Made by a program: the position numbers and the translations under genes. 64,000 nt of DNA from Kaistella flava (ex Peng et al. 2021) (GTDB lineage Bacteria; Bacteroidota; Bacteroidia; Flavobacteriales; Weeksellaceae). Below are positions 43,527-50,815 of this stretch, one piece after another. The stretch spans positions 310,001-374,000 of the forward strand of contig NZ_CP040442.1 of the NCBI RefSeq assembly GCF_015191005.1, in the 5' to 3' direction. Every line of letters begins with the position of its first letter. Position 1 is the stretch's first letter. The notes under the pieces are model-generated. The model saw only the letters and a program-made list of their open reading frames with translations. It was not told the origin of the DNA and ran no database searches.

Positions 43527-44831
43527 ATGAAAAAAATTTGGCAAAAAAATAAATCTCTAACCAACCAATTGGTCAATAATTTCACGGTTGGAAAAGATTT
43601 AGATTTCGATGATCGGTTGGCAAAATATGATGTTTTGGGTTCGATGGCGCATTGCAAAATGTTGGCAGAAGTGGGTTTAATTTCAAATCAAGAATCGCTT
43701 AAATTATTATCAGTTTTAAATGAAATTCTAGAAAGCATCGAAAATAATACTTTCGAAATCGATTCTGAAGCAGAGGATATTCACTCTCAAATCGAATCTA
43801 TTTTAATTGAAAAATTAGGTTCAACTGGAAAAAAAATCCATACTGCGCGTTCAAGAAACGATCAGGTTTTATTGGATATTAAATTATATTTATTAGATGA
43901 AATCCGTGAAATTGGTGAATTAACTGATGCTCTTTTTCAGTTATTGATTCGTTTGGCAAATCAGCATAAAAACGTTTTATTGCCGGGTTATACGCATTTT
44001 CAAGTTGCGATGCCTTCGTCTTTTGGATTGTGGTTTGGCGCTTATGCAGAGGCCTTGGTTGATGATGCAGAATTACTTTTGTCAGTCAAAAATATCATCA
44101 ATAAAAATCCTTTAGGATCTGCTGCCGGTTACGGTTCTTCATTTCCGATTGATCGGGAAAGTACGACCTATCATTTGAATTTTAAAACTTTGAATTACAA
44201 TTCGGTTTACGCACAAATGACGCGTGGGAAATCAGAGAAATTACTGGCGTCTTCGATGTCTGTTTTGGCTGGAACTTTAAGTCGATTTTCCTATGATGTC
44301 TGTTTATATTTAAGTCAGAATTTTGATTTCATCAGTTTTCCAAAAGAATTTACAACAGGTAGCAGCATTATGCCACACAAGAAAAATCCTGATATTTTTG
44401 AGTTAGTAAGAGCGCGTTGCAACCGAATTCAGTCTTTGCCGAATGAACTGATTTTGCTCACCAATAATTTACCTTCCGGCTATCATCGGGATATGCAGTT
44501 GACCAAAGAAATCCTTTTCCCAGCGATTGATTCTTTAAAAGAATGTTTGGAAATTTTGATTTATACTTTGCCGAACATCGAAGTTAAAGAAGGGATTTTA
44601 GAAGATGAGAAGTACAGGTATATTTTCAGCGTAGAGAAAATTAATGAAGAAGTGAAAAATGGAAATTCATTTCGTGATGCTTATGTTAACATAGGAAATG
44701 ATATTGAAAATAATGAATTTGAATACGATGCTAAAGACTTAAATCATAGTCATCAGGGAAGTATTGGCAATTTGTGCTTAGACGAAATTAGCCATCAATT
44801 CCATAAAATATCCTGCAAATTATTGGCTTAA
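43527..44831 (+). CDS. argH: Argininosuccinate lyase
   Basis: A 434-residue lyase that splits argininosuccinate into arginine and fumarate, the last step of the pathway. The signature TGSSIMPHKKNPDIFELVRA contains the catalytic Ser loop and HTARSRNDQV is present near residue 100. It is the last gene of the operon. Its stop overlaps the stop of the convergent Lrp-type gene by 4 bases, with no terminator in between. Confidence 0.95.
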   Translation: MKKIWQKNKSLTNQLVNNFTVGKDLDFDDRLAKYDVLGSMAHCKMLAEVGLISNQESLKLLSVLNEILESIENNTFEIDSEAEDIHSQIESILIEKLGSTGKKIHTARSRNDQVLLDIKLYLLDEIREIGELTDALFQLLIRLANQHKNVLLPGYTHFQVAMPSSFGLWFGAYAEALVDDAELLLSVKNIINKNPLGSAAGYGSSFPIDRESTTYHLNFKTLNYNSVYAQMTRGKSEKLLASSMSVLAGTLSRFSYDVCLYLSQNFDFISFPKEFTTGSSIMPHKKNPDIFELVRARCNRIQSLPNELILLTNNLPSGYHRDMQLTKEILFPAIDSLKECLEILIYTLPNIEVKEGILEDEKYRYIFSVEKINEEVKNGNSFRDAYVNIGNDIENNEFEYDAKDLNHSHQGSIGNLCLDEISHQFHKISCKLLA

Positions 44832-45283
44832 TCGAGTTTAAATTTAGTGGTCTTTTTCACTTCATGTAAAGCGATCGAACTGTGATATTGCCAGATATTT
44901 GGCGAGTTAGAAATGACATTAACAGCGAAGTCGTTGTAAGAGTTAATGTCCTTTGCGATAATTTTCAACATATAATCATATTCCCCGGAAAGGCTGATGA
45001 TTTCCTGAACTTCATCAAAACTTTCGATGTGTTTTTCAAAATCTTCCAAGGTTTTTTGAGATTGTTCTTTCAGTCGGATATTACAGTAAACGATAATATT
45101 TAGACCGAGTTTTTCACGGTTAAGGATGGCGACATATTTCTCGATAACGTTCTGTTTCTCGAGTTGTTTGATTCGTTCGTAAGTCGGCGTAAAGGTAAGT
45201 CCGATTTTCTCCGAGATTTCTTTCACCGATAACGTGGAGTCTTCCTGAAGTAAAGTGAGAATCATTCTGTCCTTGGCATCCAT
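44828..45283 (-). CDS. Lrp/AsnC-family transcriptional regulator
   Basis: A 151-residue regulator (from the ATG at 45283, MDAKDRMILTLLQED). An N-terminal helix-turn-helix (LSVKEISEKIGLTFTPTYER) is followed by a RAM ligand-binding domain (residues about 65-145: GLNIIVYCNIRLKEQ; ISLSGEYDYMLKIIAKD). A second in-frame ATG at 45301 is possible. Lrp-type proteins sense amino acids. Between the arginine operon and pyrB-carAB it is a good candidate to coordinate arginine and pyrimidine supply, though its targets are not shown. Confidence 0.88.
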   Translation of the reverse strand: MDAKDRMILTLLQEDSTLSVKEISEKIGLTFTPTYERIKQLEKQNVIEKYVAILNREKLGLNIIVYCNIRLKEQSQKTLEDFEKHIESFDEVQEIISLSGEYDYMLKIIAKDINSYNDFAVNVISNSPNIWQYHSSIALHEVKKTTKFKLD

Positions 45284-45389
45284 AAATTTGATTTTGAACA
45301 AAAATATTAAAAATAAGGCGAAAAGTGCGTGTTGATCGAGAATAGTTTTATTTGTTGAAAAAACCTTTTCCAGATTTCAGAAAATATTA

Positions 45390-45397
45390 TATCTTTG
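45390..45397 (+). promoter_or_regulatory. -7 promoter box of the pyrB-carAB leader
   Basis: TATCTTTG fits the TAnnTTTG consensus. No convincing -33 box is seen at the right distance. The expected transcription start falls within a few bases of the ATG at 45404. Confidence 0.55.
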
Positions 45398-45403
45398 CAA
45401 CTA

Positions 45404-45472
45404 ATGAAAAGAATATTTCCATTAGAAGATTTACATGCAGGCAGCAATGCCGATATTCACGATATTTATTAA
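45404..45472 (+). CDS. Putative pyrB leader peptide, 22 aa
   Basis: An ATG seven bases after the promoter box opens a 22-codon frame (starts MKRIFPLEDLHAG, ends ADIHDIY) that stops one base before the terminator hairpin at 45474. The geometry matches a translation-coupled attenuator: a ribosome at the stop codon would cover the 5' arm of the hairpin. The message would be leaderless or nearly so. No known leader peptide matches. The peptide could also be a chance frame. Confidence 0.5.
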   Translation: MKRIFPLEDLHAGSNADIHDIY

Positions 45473-45473
45473 C

Positions 45474-45503
45474 AACGAAGTCATTTTGGCTTCGTTTTTT
45501 TTT
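45474..45503 (+). terminator. Attenuator hairpin in front of pyrB
   Basis: AACGAAG (45474-45480) and CTTCGTT (45490-45496) form a perfect stem with a 9-base loop, followed by seven T. It is in the same direction as pyrB and lies only 18 bases before its start, so it must be read through or avoided for pyrB to be expressed from the upstream promoter. Confidence 0.85.
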
Positions 45504-45521
45504 GATTTAAAAACTAAAATT

Positions 45522-46418
45522 ATGCTCAGAACAGCCGATTTATCCGTAGAAAAAATTAACAAATTGCTTCAGGAAGCCGACGAGTTTTCCAAAGGTAAAG
45601 TGTTAAAAGCCAAAAGTGAAATCTATGTTTCCAATCTTTTTTTTGAAGACAGCACCAGAACAAAAACAAGTTTTGATGTTGCCGAAAGAAAGTTAGGTTT
45701 AAACGTGGTTCCTTTTGATATCTCCGCAAGTTCCGTTAATAAAGGAGAATCACTTTACGACACGGTAAAAACAATGAAAAGTCTTGGAATCGATCTTTGT
45801 GTGATCCGTCACAAAAAAGAAAAATTCTATGATGAATTTAAAGGAATTGATATTTCGATTATCAATGGGGGCGATGGAACCGGAAATCATCCGTCTCAAA
45901 ACATTTTAGATTTAATGACGATTCAGCAGGAATTCGGAAAATTTAAAGGTTTAAAAGTGGGAATTGTAGGCGATGTAAAACACAGTAGAGTTGCAAATTC
46001 TAACGCTGAAGTTCTTAGAAAACTTGGAGCCAAAGTTTATTTCTCAGGTCCAGAACAATGGTTTGATGAAGGAACAATTATCAACGGAACGTACTTATCC
46101 ATCGATGATTTGGTAAAAGAAGTTGATGTGTTAATGTTATTGAGAATTCAATACGAAAGACACGAAAGCGATGAACAGTTAAAACTTTCTCCTGAAAAAT
46201 ACCACCGCAAATTTGGTTTAACAGTAGACCGTGAAAAAGCGATGAAAAAAGAAGCCATCATTATGCATCCAGCACCGATTAACAGAGGAGTTGAAATAGC
46301 AGACGAATTGGTTGAATGCAAACGTTCCCGCATTTTTAAACAAATGGAAAACGGCGTTTTCGCCAGAATGGCCATTTTGAAAACTGCTTTGGAAGCAAAA
46401 GGATTCGAATTTGAATAA
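45522..46418 (+). CDS. pyrB: Aspartate carbamoyltransferase catalytic subunit
   Basis: A 298-residue enzyme joining carbamoyl phosphate and aspartate, the committed step of pyrimidine synthesis. Signatures: FFEDSTRTKTSFDVAE (phosphate loop), GDGTGNHPSQNILDL, and MHPAPINRGVEIAD. The frame is open upstream, but the ATG at 45522 (MLRTADLSVEKINKLL) gives the family length and lies after the terminator. No regulatory subunit pyrI is present. carA follows after another terminator-like hairpin. Confidence 0.95.
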   Translation: MLRTADLSVEKINKLLQEADEFSKGKVLKAKSEIYVSNLFFEDSTRTKTSFDVAERKLGLNVVPFDISASSVNKGESLYDTVKTMKSLGIDLCVIRHKKEKFYDEFKGIDISIINGGDGTGNHPSQNILDLMTIQQEFGKFKGLKVGIVGDVKHSRVANSNAEVLRKLGAKVYFSGPEQWFDEGTIINGTYLSIDDLVKEVDVLMLLRIQYERHESDEQLKLSPEKYHRKFGLTVDREKAMKKEAIIMHPAPINRGVEIADELVECKRSRIFKQMENGVFARMAILKTALEAKGFEFE

Positions 46419-46465: not shown

Positions 46466-46503
46466 GACGCAGTATTATGAAAGAAATTCTTGCGTCTTTT
46501 TTT
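46466..46503 (+). terminator. Terminator-like hairpin between pyrB and carA
   Basis: GACGCAG (46466-46472) and TTGCGTC (46490-46496) pair over seven positions with one G-T wobble around a 17-base loop, followed by seven T. It lies 35 bases before carA and would uncouple carAB from pyrB unless relieved. Confidence 0.7.
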
Positions 46504-46538: not shown

Positions 46539-47627
46539 ATGAAAAAGAAATTAATTTTAGAATCTGGCGAAGTGTTTCACGGAAAAGGTTTCGGAGCCGA
46601 GCAGGACATTGAAGGCGAAGTCGTTTTCAATACTGGAATGACGGGTTATCAGGAATTGATATCCGACCCTTCTTACTGCGGGCAAATCGTTTGTATGACC
46701 TATCCGCTCATCGGGAATTATGGAATTAACCGCGACGATTACGAAAGCATCGAACCTGCGATCAAAGGTTTAATCGTAAAAGAAGTATGTGATTTTCCTT
46801 CCAACTTTAGAACTCAAATGGATCTGGATGAGTTTTTCCAAAAAAGAAATCTTTCCGGAATCTCTGGAATCGACACCAGAAGATTAACGAGAGTTCTTCG
46901 AAATTCAGGCGTTGTAAAAGGTAAAATAGTAAATGAAGATGCTGATGAAAATTTAGTAATCGAAAATTTAAAAGCCTCTGTTTTAGCCACCGATCAGGTT
47001 GCCCAGGTTTCTACCAAAACATCCTACGCAAATCCGGGAAGAGGTTTGAAAGTAGTCTTAGTTGATTACGGTTCCAAACTCGGAATTTTACGCGAACTCG
47101 CTCAGAGAGATTGCGACGTTATCGTGGTTTCTCAGGATACTACAGCAGAAGAAATTCTGTTGATTAATCCTGATGGAGTCATGCTTTCCAACGGTCCTGG
47201 AGATCCGGAAGATGTGAAAGGTACCATCGAAATGATTCAAAAACTTTTAGGTAAAGTTCCAATTTTTGGAATCTGTTTAGGACATCAGTTGATCGCTTTG
47301 GCAAGTGGTGCAAAAACTTTTAAATTGAAATTCGGACATCGTGGTGGAAACCATCCGGTTTTAGATCTTAAGAAAAATAAAGTTGCGATTACTTCTCAAA
47401 ATCACGGTTACGCCGTTGATCAGGAATCTTTAAAGAATACCGATTTAGAAGAAACACATATCGCCTTAAACGACAGAACCAACGAAGGTTTGAAACACAA
47501 AATTCATCCTTGTTTTTCTGTGCAATATCACCCGGAAGCAAGTCCAGGTCCGGAAGATGCAAACTATTTATTTGATGAATTTATTGAAATGATGGAAGAA
47601 TTTAAATCTAAAAAATTATCTAAGTAA
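46539..47627 (+). CDS. carA: Carbamoyl-phosphate synthase small (glutaminase) subunit
   Basis: A 362-residue amidotransferase subunit that supplies ammonia from glutamine to CarB. The class I glutaminase Cys is in [15 protein letters not shown] and the His/Glu in [14 protein letters not shown]. The N-terminal half shows [20 protein letters not shown], typical of CarA. Its stop is two bases before the carB start. Carbamoyl phosphate is used by PyrB and by the ArgF' encoded about 6 kb upstream. Confidence 0.97.
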
Positions 47628-47629
47628 AG

Positions 47630-50600
47630 ATGGCAAAACGTACAGATATAAAAACAATTTTAGTTATCGGAAGTGGTCCAATCATCATCGGTCAAGCCGC
47701 AGAATTTGATTACGCAGGAACTCAGGCGTGCTTATCTTTAAGAGAAGAAGGCTATAAAGTAATCCTCATCAATTCCAATCCGGCAACCATCATGACCGAT
47801 GTTGAGATTGCCGATAAAGTTTACATCGAACCAATATCATTAGAATTCGTAAGTCATATTATTCGTAAGGAACGTCCAGATGCGCTTTTGCCAACTTTGG
47901 GTGGACAAACTGGTTTAAATATGGCCGTAGAATTAGAAAATTCTGGAATTCTGGAAGAATGTAAAGTAGAAGTTCTCGGAACCAAACTTTCAGCCATCAA
48001 TCAAGCGGAAGACCGTGATTTATTCCGGAATTTAATGCGTGAATTAAACGAACCCGTTCCAGATTCTGATATTGTAAATAACGTTCAGTCGGCTTTAGAA
48101 TTCGCTCACAATATTGGTTATCCTGTGATTGTTCGTCCAGCGTTTACGATGGGTGGAACTGGTGGTGGAATTGCTCATAGTGATGACGAATTGAAAGAAA
48201 TTACAAGTTTCGGTTTAAAATACAGTCCCGTTCGTCAGTGTTTGATTGAAAAATCCATCGCCGGCTTCAAGGAGATCGAGTACGAAGTAATGCGTGACAA
48301 AAACGACAATGCGATTGTAGTTTGTAATATGGAAAACATCGATCCTGTGGGAATTCACACTGGAGATTCGATTGTGGTTGCTCCTTCACAAACGCTTTCA
48401 GATCGGGAATATCAAATGTTGAGAAATTCTTCATTAAAAATTATTCGCGCTTTAGGAATTGAAGGTGGCTGTAATGTTCAGTTGGCTTTAGATCCAAATT
48501 CTTACGATTACTATATCATCGAAGTAAATCCAAGAGTGTCGCGTTCATCGGCTTTGGCAAGTAAAGCAACAGGTTATCCGATTGCTAAAATCGCTGCTAA
48601 AATCGCTGTCGGTTTGACTTTAGATGAAATCATGAATCCGGTGACTGGAAAAACTTACGCATGTTTTGAACCTGCTTTGGATTATGTCGTAACGAAATTC
48701 CCACGTTTCCCTTTTGATAAATTTGAAACCGCTGACAGAAGACTTTCAACCCAAATGAAAGCAACCGGAGAAGTGATGGCAATCGGTCGAAACTTCGAAG
48801 AATCTTTGCAGAAAGCAATTCGTTCTTTAGAAACAGGTTTAAGACATATCGGACTCAAATCAAAAGATGCTGCTGCATTAACCGACGAGGAAATCGAAAG
48901 AAGAATCAGAGTTTGTGATGATGAGCGTTTGTTCATTATCGGCGACGCTTTGAGAAGAGGCTACGACTGGGAAAAAATAGTTGAGTGGAGTAAAATTGAT
49001 AAATTCTTCATCTGGAAAATTAAAAAACTCATCGATTTCGAAAAGGTTATTGCTGAAAATAAATTCGACAAAGAAACTTTACTCGAAGCCAAGAAATTAG
49101 GATTTTCAGATTTAAGTATCGCAACATTATGGAACTCTACTCAAAAAGAAATTTTTGAATACCGAAGAAATAATGGAGTAATGCCGGTTTATAAAATGGT
49201 CGATACTTGCGCTGCGGAATTTGAAAGTGAAACGCCTTATTTCTACGGAACGTACGAAGAGGAAAACGAAAGTGTTCCTTCCAATAAAGAAAAAATCATC
49301 GTTTTAGGTTCTGGTCCAATTCGGATTGGACAAGGTGTAGAATTCGATTACGCCACGGTTCACTCGGTTTGGGCAATAAAAGAAATGGGTTACGAAGCGA
49401 TTATCATTAATAATAATCCGGAAACCGTTTCCACCGATTTCTCCATTTCCGATAAATTATATTTCGAACCTTTGACCGAAGAAGATGTAATGAACATCAT
49501 CGATTTGGAAAAGCCAAAAGGAGTCGTAGTTCAGTTTGGTGGACAAACTGCCATTAATTTAGCAGATAAATTAGCCGCACACGGCGTTCAGATTTTAGGA
49601 ACTTCTCTGGAAGATTTAGACCGCGCCGAAAATAGAAATAAATTTGAAGCCGCACTTCAGGAAATGGGAATTCCACAACCTTTGGGAAAAACCTGCTTTA
49701 CAAAAGAAGAGGCTTTGGTTATCGCGAATGAAATCGGTTTCCCGGTTTTAGTTCGTCCGAGTTATGTGTTAGGAGGAAGAGCCATGGAAATCGTTTATGA
49801 TGAGCATGAACTTTCTCATTATATGACGAATGCGGTGAAAGAAAATTCTGAACATCCGATTTTGATTGACCGATATTTAACCGGAAAAGAAGTTGAAATT
49901 GACGCAATTTGTGACGGTGAAACAGTAGTGATTCCAGGGATTATGGAACATATCGAAAGAGCAGGAGTTCACTCCGGAGATTCGATCGCCGTTTATCCAC
50001 CACAAAATATCAACGCTGAGCAAATCGCTACGTTAGTTGATTATACCGAAAGATTAGCGAAAGGATTGAATGTGATTGGCTTAATGAATATTCAATATGT
50101 CCTTTATCAAGGCGGTGTTTACGTGATTGAGGTAAATCCAAGATCGAGTAGAACCGTTCCTTTCTTATCAAAGATTACCGAAATCCCGATGGCGAATTTA
50201 GCCACGAAAGTAATACTCGGACAAAAATTAAAAGATCTCGGTTATAAAAACGGTTTGGCTCCAGTGAAAGACGGAGTTTATGTAAAAGTTCCGGTCTTCT
50301 CCTTTTCAAAATTAACAAGAGTTGATATTTCCCTCGGACCAGAAATGAAATCCACGGGAGAAGTAATGGGGAAAGATACGACGTTGGAAAAAGCCTTATA
50401 CAAAGGGTTAATCGGAGCCGGAAGAAAAATGCCTTTACACGGCTCAATCCTTTTCACTGTCGCAGATAAACATAAAGAAGAAGCCTGTGAACTCGCACGA
50501 AGATTTCAGGAAATTGGCTTCAGAATCTGGGCAACTGAAGGAACTGCAAACTATTTTGAAGAAAACGGCGTTCGCACCAAAATCGGTTATAAAATCGAAG

Positions 50601-50815
50601 AAAATCCGGAAATTAATTTGATCGATTTAATTCAAACCGGAAAAGTTCAATACATTGTAAATACCATGACCAAAGGAAAACAATCCGAAAGAGACGGTTT
50701 CCAAATCCGAAGAACGTCGGTTGAAAATGGGGTTCCTTGTTTAACTTCGATGGATACGGTTGAAGCGATTTTAAAGGTGATTGAAAGTATGAGTTTTAAA
50801 ATGGAGCAGATGTAA
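47630..50815 (+). CDS. carB: Carbamoyl-phosphate synthase large subunit
   Basis: A 1,061-residue synthetase with two homologous ATP-grasp halves ([20 protein letters not shown] at residue 13 and [20 protein letters not shown] near 558) and a C-terminal MGS-like allosteric domain. ATP-grasp signatures [17 protein letters not shown] and [17 protein letters not shown] are intact. It makes carbamoyl phosphate from bicarbonate, ammonia and two ATP. It is the last gene of the pyrB-carA-carB unit, followed by two terminators. Confidence 0.97.

Follow-up and report, generated by a model that had tools for sequence, protein, structure and literature searches.

The window analysed here is a 64,000-nucleotide stretch of the genome of Kaistella flava, a member of the Weeksellaceae (Bacteroidota) whose nearest named relatives by contig search are Kaistella species. 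It contains pyrB, followed on the same strand by carA and carB. Upstream of pyrB we found a promoter box, a short leader frame overlapped by two hairpins, an A/T-rich tract and a predicted terminator, as listed below.

45390–45397, + strand: −7 promoter box TATCTTTG of the Bacteroidota TAnnTTTG type, seen in the sequence; relatives have a TAHHTTTG box 5–7 nt before the leader ATG
45402, + strand: predicted transcription start, the fifth base past the box, placed by the box position in Flavobacterium; the 5′ UTR would be about 2 nt
45404–45472, + strand: leader frame of 22 codons, MKRIFPLEDLHAGSNADIHDIY, with ATG at 45404 and stop codon TAA at 45470–45472
45401–45425, + strand: hairpin 1, CTAATG...CATTAG, with the start codon within the stem (sequence and folding)
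45440–45451, + strand: hairpin 2, GGCA-GCAA-TGCC, a possible pause hairpin (arm-pair comparison and shuffle test)
45461–45470, + strand: A/T-rich tract GATATTTATT, proposed as a UTP-sensitive pause region (ATATTT recurrence and T fraction)
45474–45503, + strand: predicted intrinsic terminator, with hairpin 45474–45496 and T run 45495–45503
45522–46418, + strand: pyrB, aspartate carbamoyltransferase catalytic subunit (NF002032, 350.9 bits against a cut-off of 263)
46539–47627, + strand: carA, carbamoyl phosphate synthase small subunit (NF009475, 497.6 bits); possible co-control with pyrB
47630–50815, + strand: carB, carbamoyl phosphate synthase large subunit (NF003671, 1629.9 bits); possible co-control with pyrB

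A sequence-only reading of this DNA had described the box followed by an ATG, a 22-codon frame whose stop lies one base 5′ of a hairpin, and an 18-base gap to pyrB. We find all three: six bases separate the box from the ATG, the TAA is one base short of the hairpin, and the pyrB ATG lies 18 bases past the T run. The hairpin had been called a perfect 7-bp stem with seven T. Its outer part is indeed perfect, but the whole stem has 10 pairs including one G–U, and the T run comprises nine T, two of which are paired in the stem. This hairpin has the most pairs among 11 terminator-like sites in a 12-kb scan. The terminator site alone proves little, since chance alone would give 9.1 such sites in 12 kb. 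Folding of the leader gave a z of −2.35 relative to shuffles, with 5 of 200 shuffles equally good, and the 64-kb window has no Rfam match at gathering scores. An extension of pyrB in frame from the ATG at 45435 through the terminator was rejected by eye because the distance from the hairpin to pyrB varies among relatives. Divergent from the leader, on the minus strand, is a gene for an Lrp/AsnC-type regulator (44828–45301), whose best match is below its own cut-off.

In the gap between pyrB and carA, a run of seven T comes after a weak inverted repeat, GACGCA...TGCGTC (46466–46503). We rejected this hairpin as a second attenuator: among 17 loci, L007 has a similar one and L009 a degraded one, and by eye none could be recognised elsewhere. 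Loci L037 and L143 have terminator-like hairpins with T runs just 3′ of pyrB (by eye), which could mean separate transcription of carAB in those genera. The pyrB–carA gap carries short recurring words of the GAGTCAAGAGCCAAG type in L022 and L026 and, less clearly, in L014 and L125.

Conservation of the arrangement and the promoter

We compared 146 regions upstream of pyrB, taken from 37 genomes (36 of the window's genus, its own included, and one of a second genus), 80 named loci (mostly Kaistella and Chryseobacterium, one Soonwooa and some labelled only Weeksellaceae) and 29 loci mostly from further genera. These contain 89 distinct sequences, because some genomes are present twice, from two collections. 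Left out were L002, L119, L120 and L151 (not pyrB, or a repeat of one site) and L150 (from G119), whose pyrB match reaches only 5.8e-4. The set covers a minority of the 263 genomes, among 296 of the family, that have a pyrB match; the other 33 have none, nor do 6 of 33 genera. For the analyses below we used 30 representatives, hand-picked after the sequences had been seen and consisting of one locus per further genus plus divergent ones.

The order box, N5–7, ATG, frame, hairpin, T run and pyrB is present in 142 of the 146 regions, which excludes a chance origin of the arrangement. The four exceptions are a region at a contig edge (L111), a pyrB fragment (L149) and two loci of genus g36 (L147 and L148). 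Both g36 loci examined are without the box–ATG arrangement and have a different terminator (ACATCTTA...TAAGATGT); their pyrB is distant (about 50% identical). The sequence-only reading had proposed aligning the 5′ regions of pyrB from relatives, with loss of the hairpin or frame as a refutation, and its idea withstands this comparison: frame, stop position and hairpin hold over 25 genera (by our own labels), with two exceptions among the 30 representatives.

The box and leader are more conserved than the gene they precede. In the Kaistella group, the mean ungapped identity of the box plus leader (80 nt) is 0.80, compared with 0.74 for the first 450 nt of pyrB, and the box plus leader exceeds pyrB in 412 of 528 pairs. 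The corresponding values in the Chryseobacterium group are 0.91 and 0.83, with the box plus leader higher in 448 of 465 pairs. Third positions of pyrB are far less conserved than the box plus leader, with identities of 0.50 in the Kaistella group and 0.61 in the Chryseobacterium group, and the 60 nt 5′ of the box have identities of 0.44 and 0.57, respectively.

Among the 142 regions the box-to-ATG spacing is 6 nt in 134, 5 nt in 7 and 7 nt in 1. The promoter box occupies −12 to −5 in Flavobacterium johnsoniae (PMC6847099) and the same position in F. psychrophilum (PMC9723704). The fixed spacing and the box position in Flavobacterium together suggest that the RNA starts about two bases 5′ of the leader ATG, which supports the earlier suggestion that the leader frame might be leaderless. 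Such a near-leaderless start would be unusual, since leaders exceed 10 nt in 87% of predicted transcripts of F. johnsoniae (PMC6847099) and leaderless mRNAs make up 5.5% in F. psychrophilum (PMC9723704). Inspection by eye revealed no clear −33 element. A second promoter box between the leader ATG and pyrB is absent from 86 of the 89 distinct leaders; it is present in three, and in two of these it is inside the leader frame. In L131, a TAAATTTG box ends four bases 5′ of pyrB and may yield a second, leaderless pyrB transcript.

The leader frame and RNA elements

The leader frame is open to within 6 nt of the terminator hairpin in 28 of the 30 representatives, compared with 8.4 expected from dinucleotide shuffles (P = 1.4e-14); in 23 of 25 when one representative per genus is used and the T-rich end is shuffled apart (7.9 expected, P = 1.2e-10); and in 14 of the 16 leaders that are less than 55% identical (4.6 expected, P = 5e-7), all three P values presupposing independent lineages, a premise that holds only partly. 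The other two frames are open in 8 and 7 of the 30 representatives. The exceptions are L130, which stops 13 nt before the hairpin, and L134, which stops 8 nt before it. Among the 89 distinct leaders, the stop is at most 4 nt before the hairpin in 22, overlaps its first bases in 51 and is inside it in 4, while in 10 the frame runs through the hairpin; 87 of the 89 frames thus end next to the hairpin, within it or past it, the other two having an earlier stop. The stop codon is TAA in 67, TAG in 14 and TGA in 7, and one leader has no stop in reach. Because the T-rich tract 5′ of the hairpin readily gives a stop, it is the open stretch before the tract that is telling, not the stop itself. The length from ATG to hairpin (n = 25) is found in all three classes modulo 3 (19, 3 and 3).

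No conservation of the peptide itself is visible. By eye, we saw no resemblance between the peptides of different genera and no conserved run of codons for an amino acid of the pathway. The synonymous share of changes is 0.14 in frame 0 and 0.24 and 0.11 in the other frames for the Kaistella group, and 0.06 compared with 0.08 and 0.28 for the Chryseobacterium group. In both of these dense groups, synonymous changes are therefore not favoured in frame, and variation is not greatest at third positions. With neither peptide conservation nor synonymous preference, selection appears to act on the nucleotides and the open frame, not visibly on the amino acids. Residue counts in the 30 representatives gave 50 Asp codons compared with 24.5 in shuffles, spread over 25 of the 30 leaders, and 20 Arg codons compared with 47, a deficit. 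Both the Asp excess and the Arg deficit may be ordinary protein composition.

At the RNA level, RNAalifold, run on 33 of 46 picked leaders, predicts a terminator stem of 9 pairs, 5 of which have changes on both sides, and the mean energy of the terminator hairpin in the 30 representatives is −11.9 kcal/mol. Hairpins 1 and 2 were not predicted in that alignment, in part because its Chryseobacterium rows look shifted. Pairing of the leader with the 5′ arm of the terminator is no stronger than in shuffles (mean −4.65 compared with −4.74 kcal/mol; 1 of 30 representatives below 0.05), so no RNA switch of the antiterminator or riboswitch type is apparent.

Directly before the terminator the leader becomes T-rich. 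The last 14 nt before the hairpin have a T fraction of 0.67, compared with 0.28 elsewhere in the leader, and the fraction is higher there in 30 of 30 representatives. The motif ATATTT is found between hairpin 2 and the terminator in 79 of the 89 distinct leaders. It occurs in all three codon phases (74, 2 and 3) and can therefore be kept independently of the frame. We propose that this tract may be a UTP-sensitive pause region. It is the sole feature of the sequence that points to UTP, and any A+T-rich genome could carry such a tract.

Hairpin 2 recurs in position but not in sequence. Its best arms form 33 different pairs in the 89 leaders, some of just 3 bp. Its pairing is above that of shuffles, with a Fisher P of 2.6e-11 over the 30 representatives (10 of them singly below 0.05) and 0.92 for a control window; with one representative per genus, P is 3.8e-8. 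The 3′ end of the hairpin is 15–28 nt 5′ of the terminator in 89 of 89 leaders when the search is restricted to 14–30 nt, and in 28 of 30 representatives when it is unrestricted. At the E. coli pyrL pause, NusA is reported to be without effect, and compensatory hairpin mutants to give no rescue (PMC9291695). As that pause seems independent of hairpin and NusA, hairpin 2 may not act in pausing; since it recurs here, it may have another purpose. A stem of the hairpin 1 type, which contains the ATG and scores at least 5, is found in 15 of 30 representatives (5.6 expected) and is thus not universal. It has the form CTAATG/CATTAG in Kaistella and Chryseobacterium and CAATG/CATTG in several other genera.

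Regulators and distribution in the family

The absence of pyrI nearby and of PyrR in the window, both claimed earlier, extends to the whole genome, in which no PyrR is over the cut-off (there are two weak matches) and PyrI, the aspartate carbamoyltransferase regulatory chain (ATCase_reg), has no match. PyrR (NF003549) is over its cut-off in none of 80 genomes of the window's family. In a sample of the order, it is over the cut-off in 93 of 148 genomes, none of which is among the at least 20 genomes of the window's family in that sample. All 17 genomes from other families in which pyrB was matched (e.g. G038 and G042; stretches L152–L168) have a PyrR gene over the cut-off directly 5′ of pyrB, a comparison that covers the positions of the PyrR and pyrB genes only. 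The pyrB of these 17 genomes is only 39–43% identical to that of the window.

We built a covariance model from 33 leaders and searched 60 genomes of the family, obtaining 37 matches at E ≤ 1e-4 in 36 genomes, some of which are the model's own input sequences. All 29 matches that were checked are directly 5′ of pyrB, and the remaining 8 are without a pyrB position at hand. A pyrB match is present in 44 of the 60 genomes: 36 have a strong leader match, three a weaker one directly before pyrB (G075, G083 and G090) and five none there, namely G073 (where the leader was found by pattern), three g36 genomes and G113 (a pyrB fragment). There is no strong match to the leader model in the 16 genomes without pyrB. 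In a sample of the class (295 genomes), 13 match at E ≤ 0.01, and only three, of the window's family, reach 1e-4. For the thirteen weaker hits, with E from 1.8e-4 to 0.01 and all but one outside the family, the 3 kb around each contained no pyrB match. Weak cases may be missed in these large sets because the search filter is strict. Within the window's own genome, a strict pattern finds the pyrB site only, and a loose pattern gives 98 matches compared with 73 for a reversed control, with the pyrB site alone recognised among them (loci viewed for 30 of the 98); inspection of one further match yielded nothing. Genome G070 (L126; C11:101623-102507) has two pyrB copies, each with its own leader, which could reflect a duplication or a mixed assembly.

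Proposed control of pyrB by ribosome and polymerase

The anatomy of the locus is close to that of E. coli pyrL–pyrBI, which likewise has a promoter, a short leader frame reaching a terminator, a T-rich tract before that terminator, and pyrB next. The E. coli pyrBI attenuator is not known to use an antiterminator, and none was seen here. The distance from ATG to hairpin is similar, about 88 nt in E. coli pyrL (counted on the genome sequence) and 66–84 nt here. There are also clear differences. The sequences of pyrL and of the leader are unlike by eye, and the pyrL frame has 44 codons and runs past the hairpin, whereas the frames here mostly have 22–24 codons and stop at the hairpin. E. coli pyrL has GGAGG before its ATG, whereas the Weeksellaceae leader has no 5′ UTR led by a Shine–Dalgarno sequence; Bacteroidota are, to our knowledge, a phylum without Shine–Dalgarno signals. 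Unlike pyrL, roughly every second representative has a hairpin over its start codon. The pyrI gene of the enteric pyrBI operon is absent here; it is a feature of that operon and not of the mechanism. Attenuation of pyr genes by a terminator is also a property of the Bacillus PyrR system. Unlike that system, the locus here is found in a family in which none of the 80 genomes has PyrR over the cut-off, and it has no Rfam match in the window and no antiterminator pairing. The trp and his attenuators share a leader frame, a terminator and the ribosome as sensor, but no conserved codon run or alternative pairing is seen here, and the gene makes pyrimidines.

We think it likely that transcription of pyrB is controlled by a cis-acting, translation-coupled attenuator resembling that of E. 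coli pyrBI. It probably senses UTP, the likeliest signal because the gene is pyrB and the tract is T-rich. From the sequence we infer a chain of events that runs from the start site through translation, pausing and the UTP signal to termination. RNA polymerase would start about two bases 5′ of the leader AUG, and a ribosome would load on the emerging 5′ end. Once past hairpin 2, the polymerase would enter the ATATTTATT tract. If UTP is scarce, it would linger in this tract and the ribosome would catch up; on the last codons or the stop codon, the ribosome would cover the 5′ arm of the terminator, allowing transcription into pyrB. If UTP is plentiful, the polymerase would stay ahead of the ribosome, the hairpin would form and transcription would end. 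The leader peptide would have no role of its own, and coupling of transcription and translation in Bacteroidota is assumed. We propose this chain because of the pyrBI-like anatomy and because of published E. coli results: termination fell from about 90% to below 10% when a stop codon was shifted from 28 to 5 bp in front of a terminator (PMC4824070), and keeping the pyrL terminator from acting is stated to require tight coupling over pyrL (PMC5021804). The open frame, the absence of antiterminator pairing, the T-rich motif that is kept in every phase and the lack of PyrR and PyrI also favour this reading. Counting against it are the early stops of L130 and L134, the two g36 loci, the want of a clear −33 element and the RNAalifold prediction, which gave neither hairpin 1 nor hairpin 2. 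It is possible, if doubtful, that the start codon in hairpin 1 at the 5′ end makes the leader a one-shot kinetic timer that weighs ribosome loading against polymerase speed, PyrR having been exchanged for it in one family. After about 25–30 nt had been made, hairpin 1 would shut the AUG away, and only ribosomes on the nascent leaderless 5′ end would translate.

The same coupled anatomy could serve a signal other than UTP, with ribosome supply, the stringent response or the total nucleotide level setting how closely the ribosome follows the polymerase. Anatomy alone names no signal, and a frame that in 87 of the 89 leaders extends to the terminator hairpin would suit any of these; that the gene is pyrB, that the tract before the terminator is T-rich and that the genome has neither PyrR over the cut-off nor a PyrI match make such a signal unlikely. 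We regard as quite improbable an RNA in which a ligand or protein recognises a site made up of hairpins 1 and 2 and the ATATTTATT motif, so that the terminator is controlled without translation. The conservation of the nucleotides above that of pyrB, the pairing of hairpin 2 above shuffles and the lack of any sign of peptide conservation would all fit such an RNA, but the window has no Rfam match at gathering scores, there is no antiterminator pairing, the sequence of hairpin 2 varies freely (33 arm pairs), and an open frame would be superfluous in a non-coding RNA.

Control through the peptide, by an arrest peptide or by an attenuator specific for arginine or aspartate codons, has a certain appeal, given that carAB is 3′ of pyrB and that aspartate, whose codons exceed shuffles, is the substrate of PyrB. 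The peptides of different genera are nevertheless unlike, synonymous changes are not favoured, Arg codons are below shuffles and there is no alternative pairing, all of which makes such control very improbable; we rejected amino-acid sensing despite the Asp excess. There is hardly more to be said for a constitutive partial terminator, or for a separate gene for a small RNA or small protein that merely happens to be 5′ of pyrB, to which we would give only a very slight chance. A promoter, frame and terminator of about 105 nt could stand alone, but 29 of 29 checkable model matches are directly 5′ of pyrB, none is found in the 16 genomes without pyrB, and 86 of 89 leaders have no second promoter box ahead of pyrB.

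The authors of a 2010 survey knew of no demonstrated leader-peptide system beyond Proteobacteria and Actinobacteria, with the exception of the atypical ermC leader (PMC2965389). More recently, clues of leader-peptide attenuators before amino-acid operons were described in F. psychrophilum (PMC9723704). Among the matches listed in the open-licence literature, judged by titles and the beginnings of abstracts, we found no description of a pyrB leader of this kind from Bacteroidota. If the translation-coupled attenuator proposed here is correct, nucleotide sensing by the distance between ribosome and polymerase would exist beyond the enteric bacteria, by way of a leaderless frame and where PyrR is absent. 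The arrangement suggests that in one large family of Bacteroidota the ribosome itself decides the transcription of pyrB, as in E. coli but in a different sequence.
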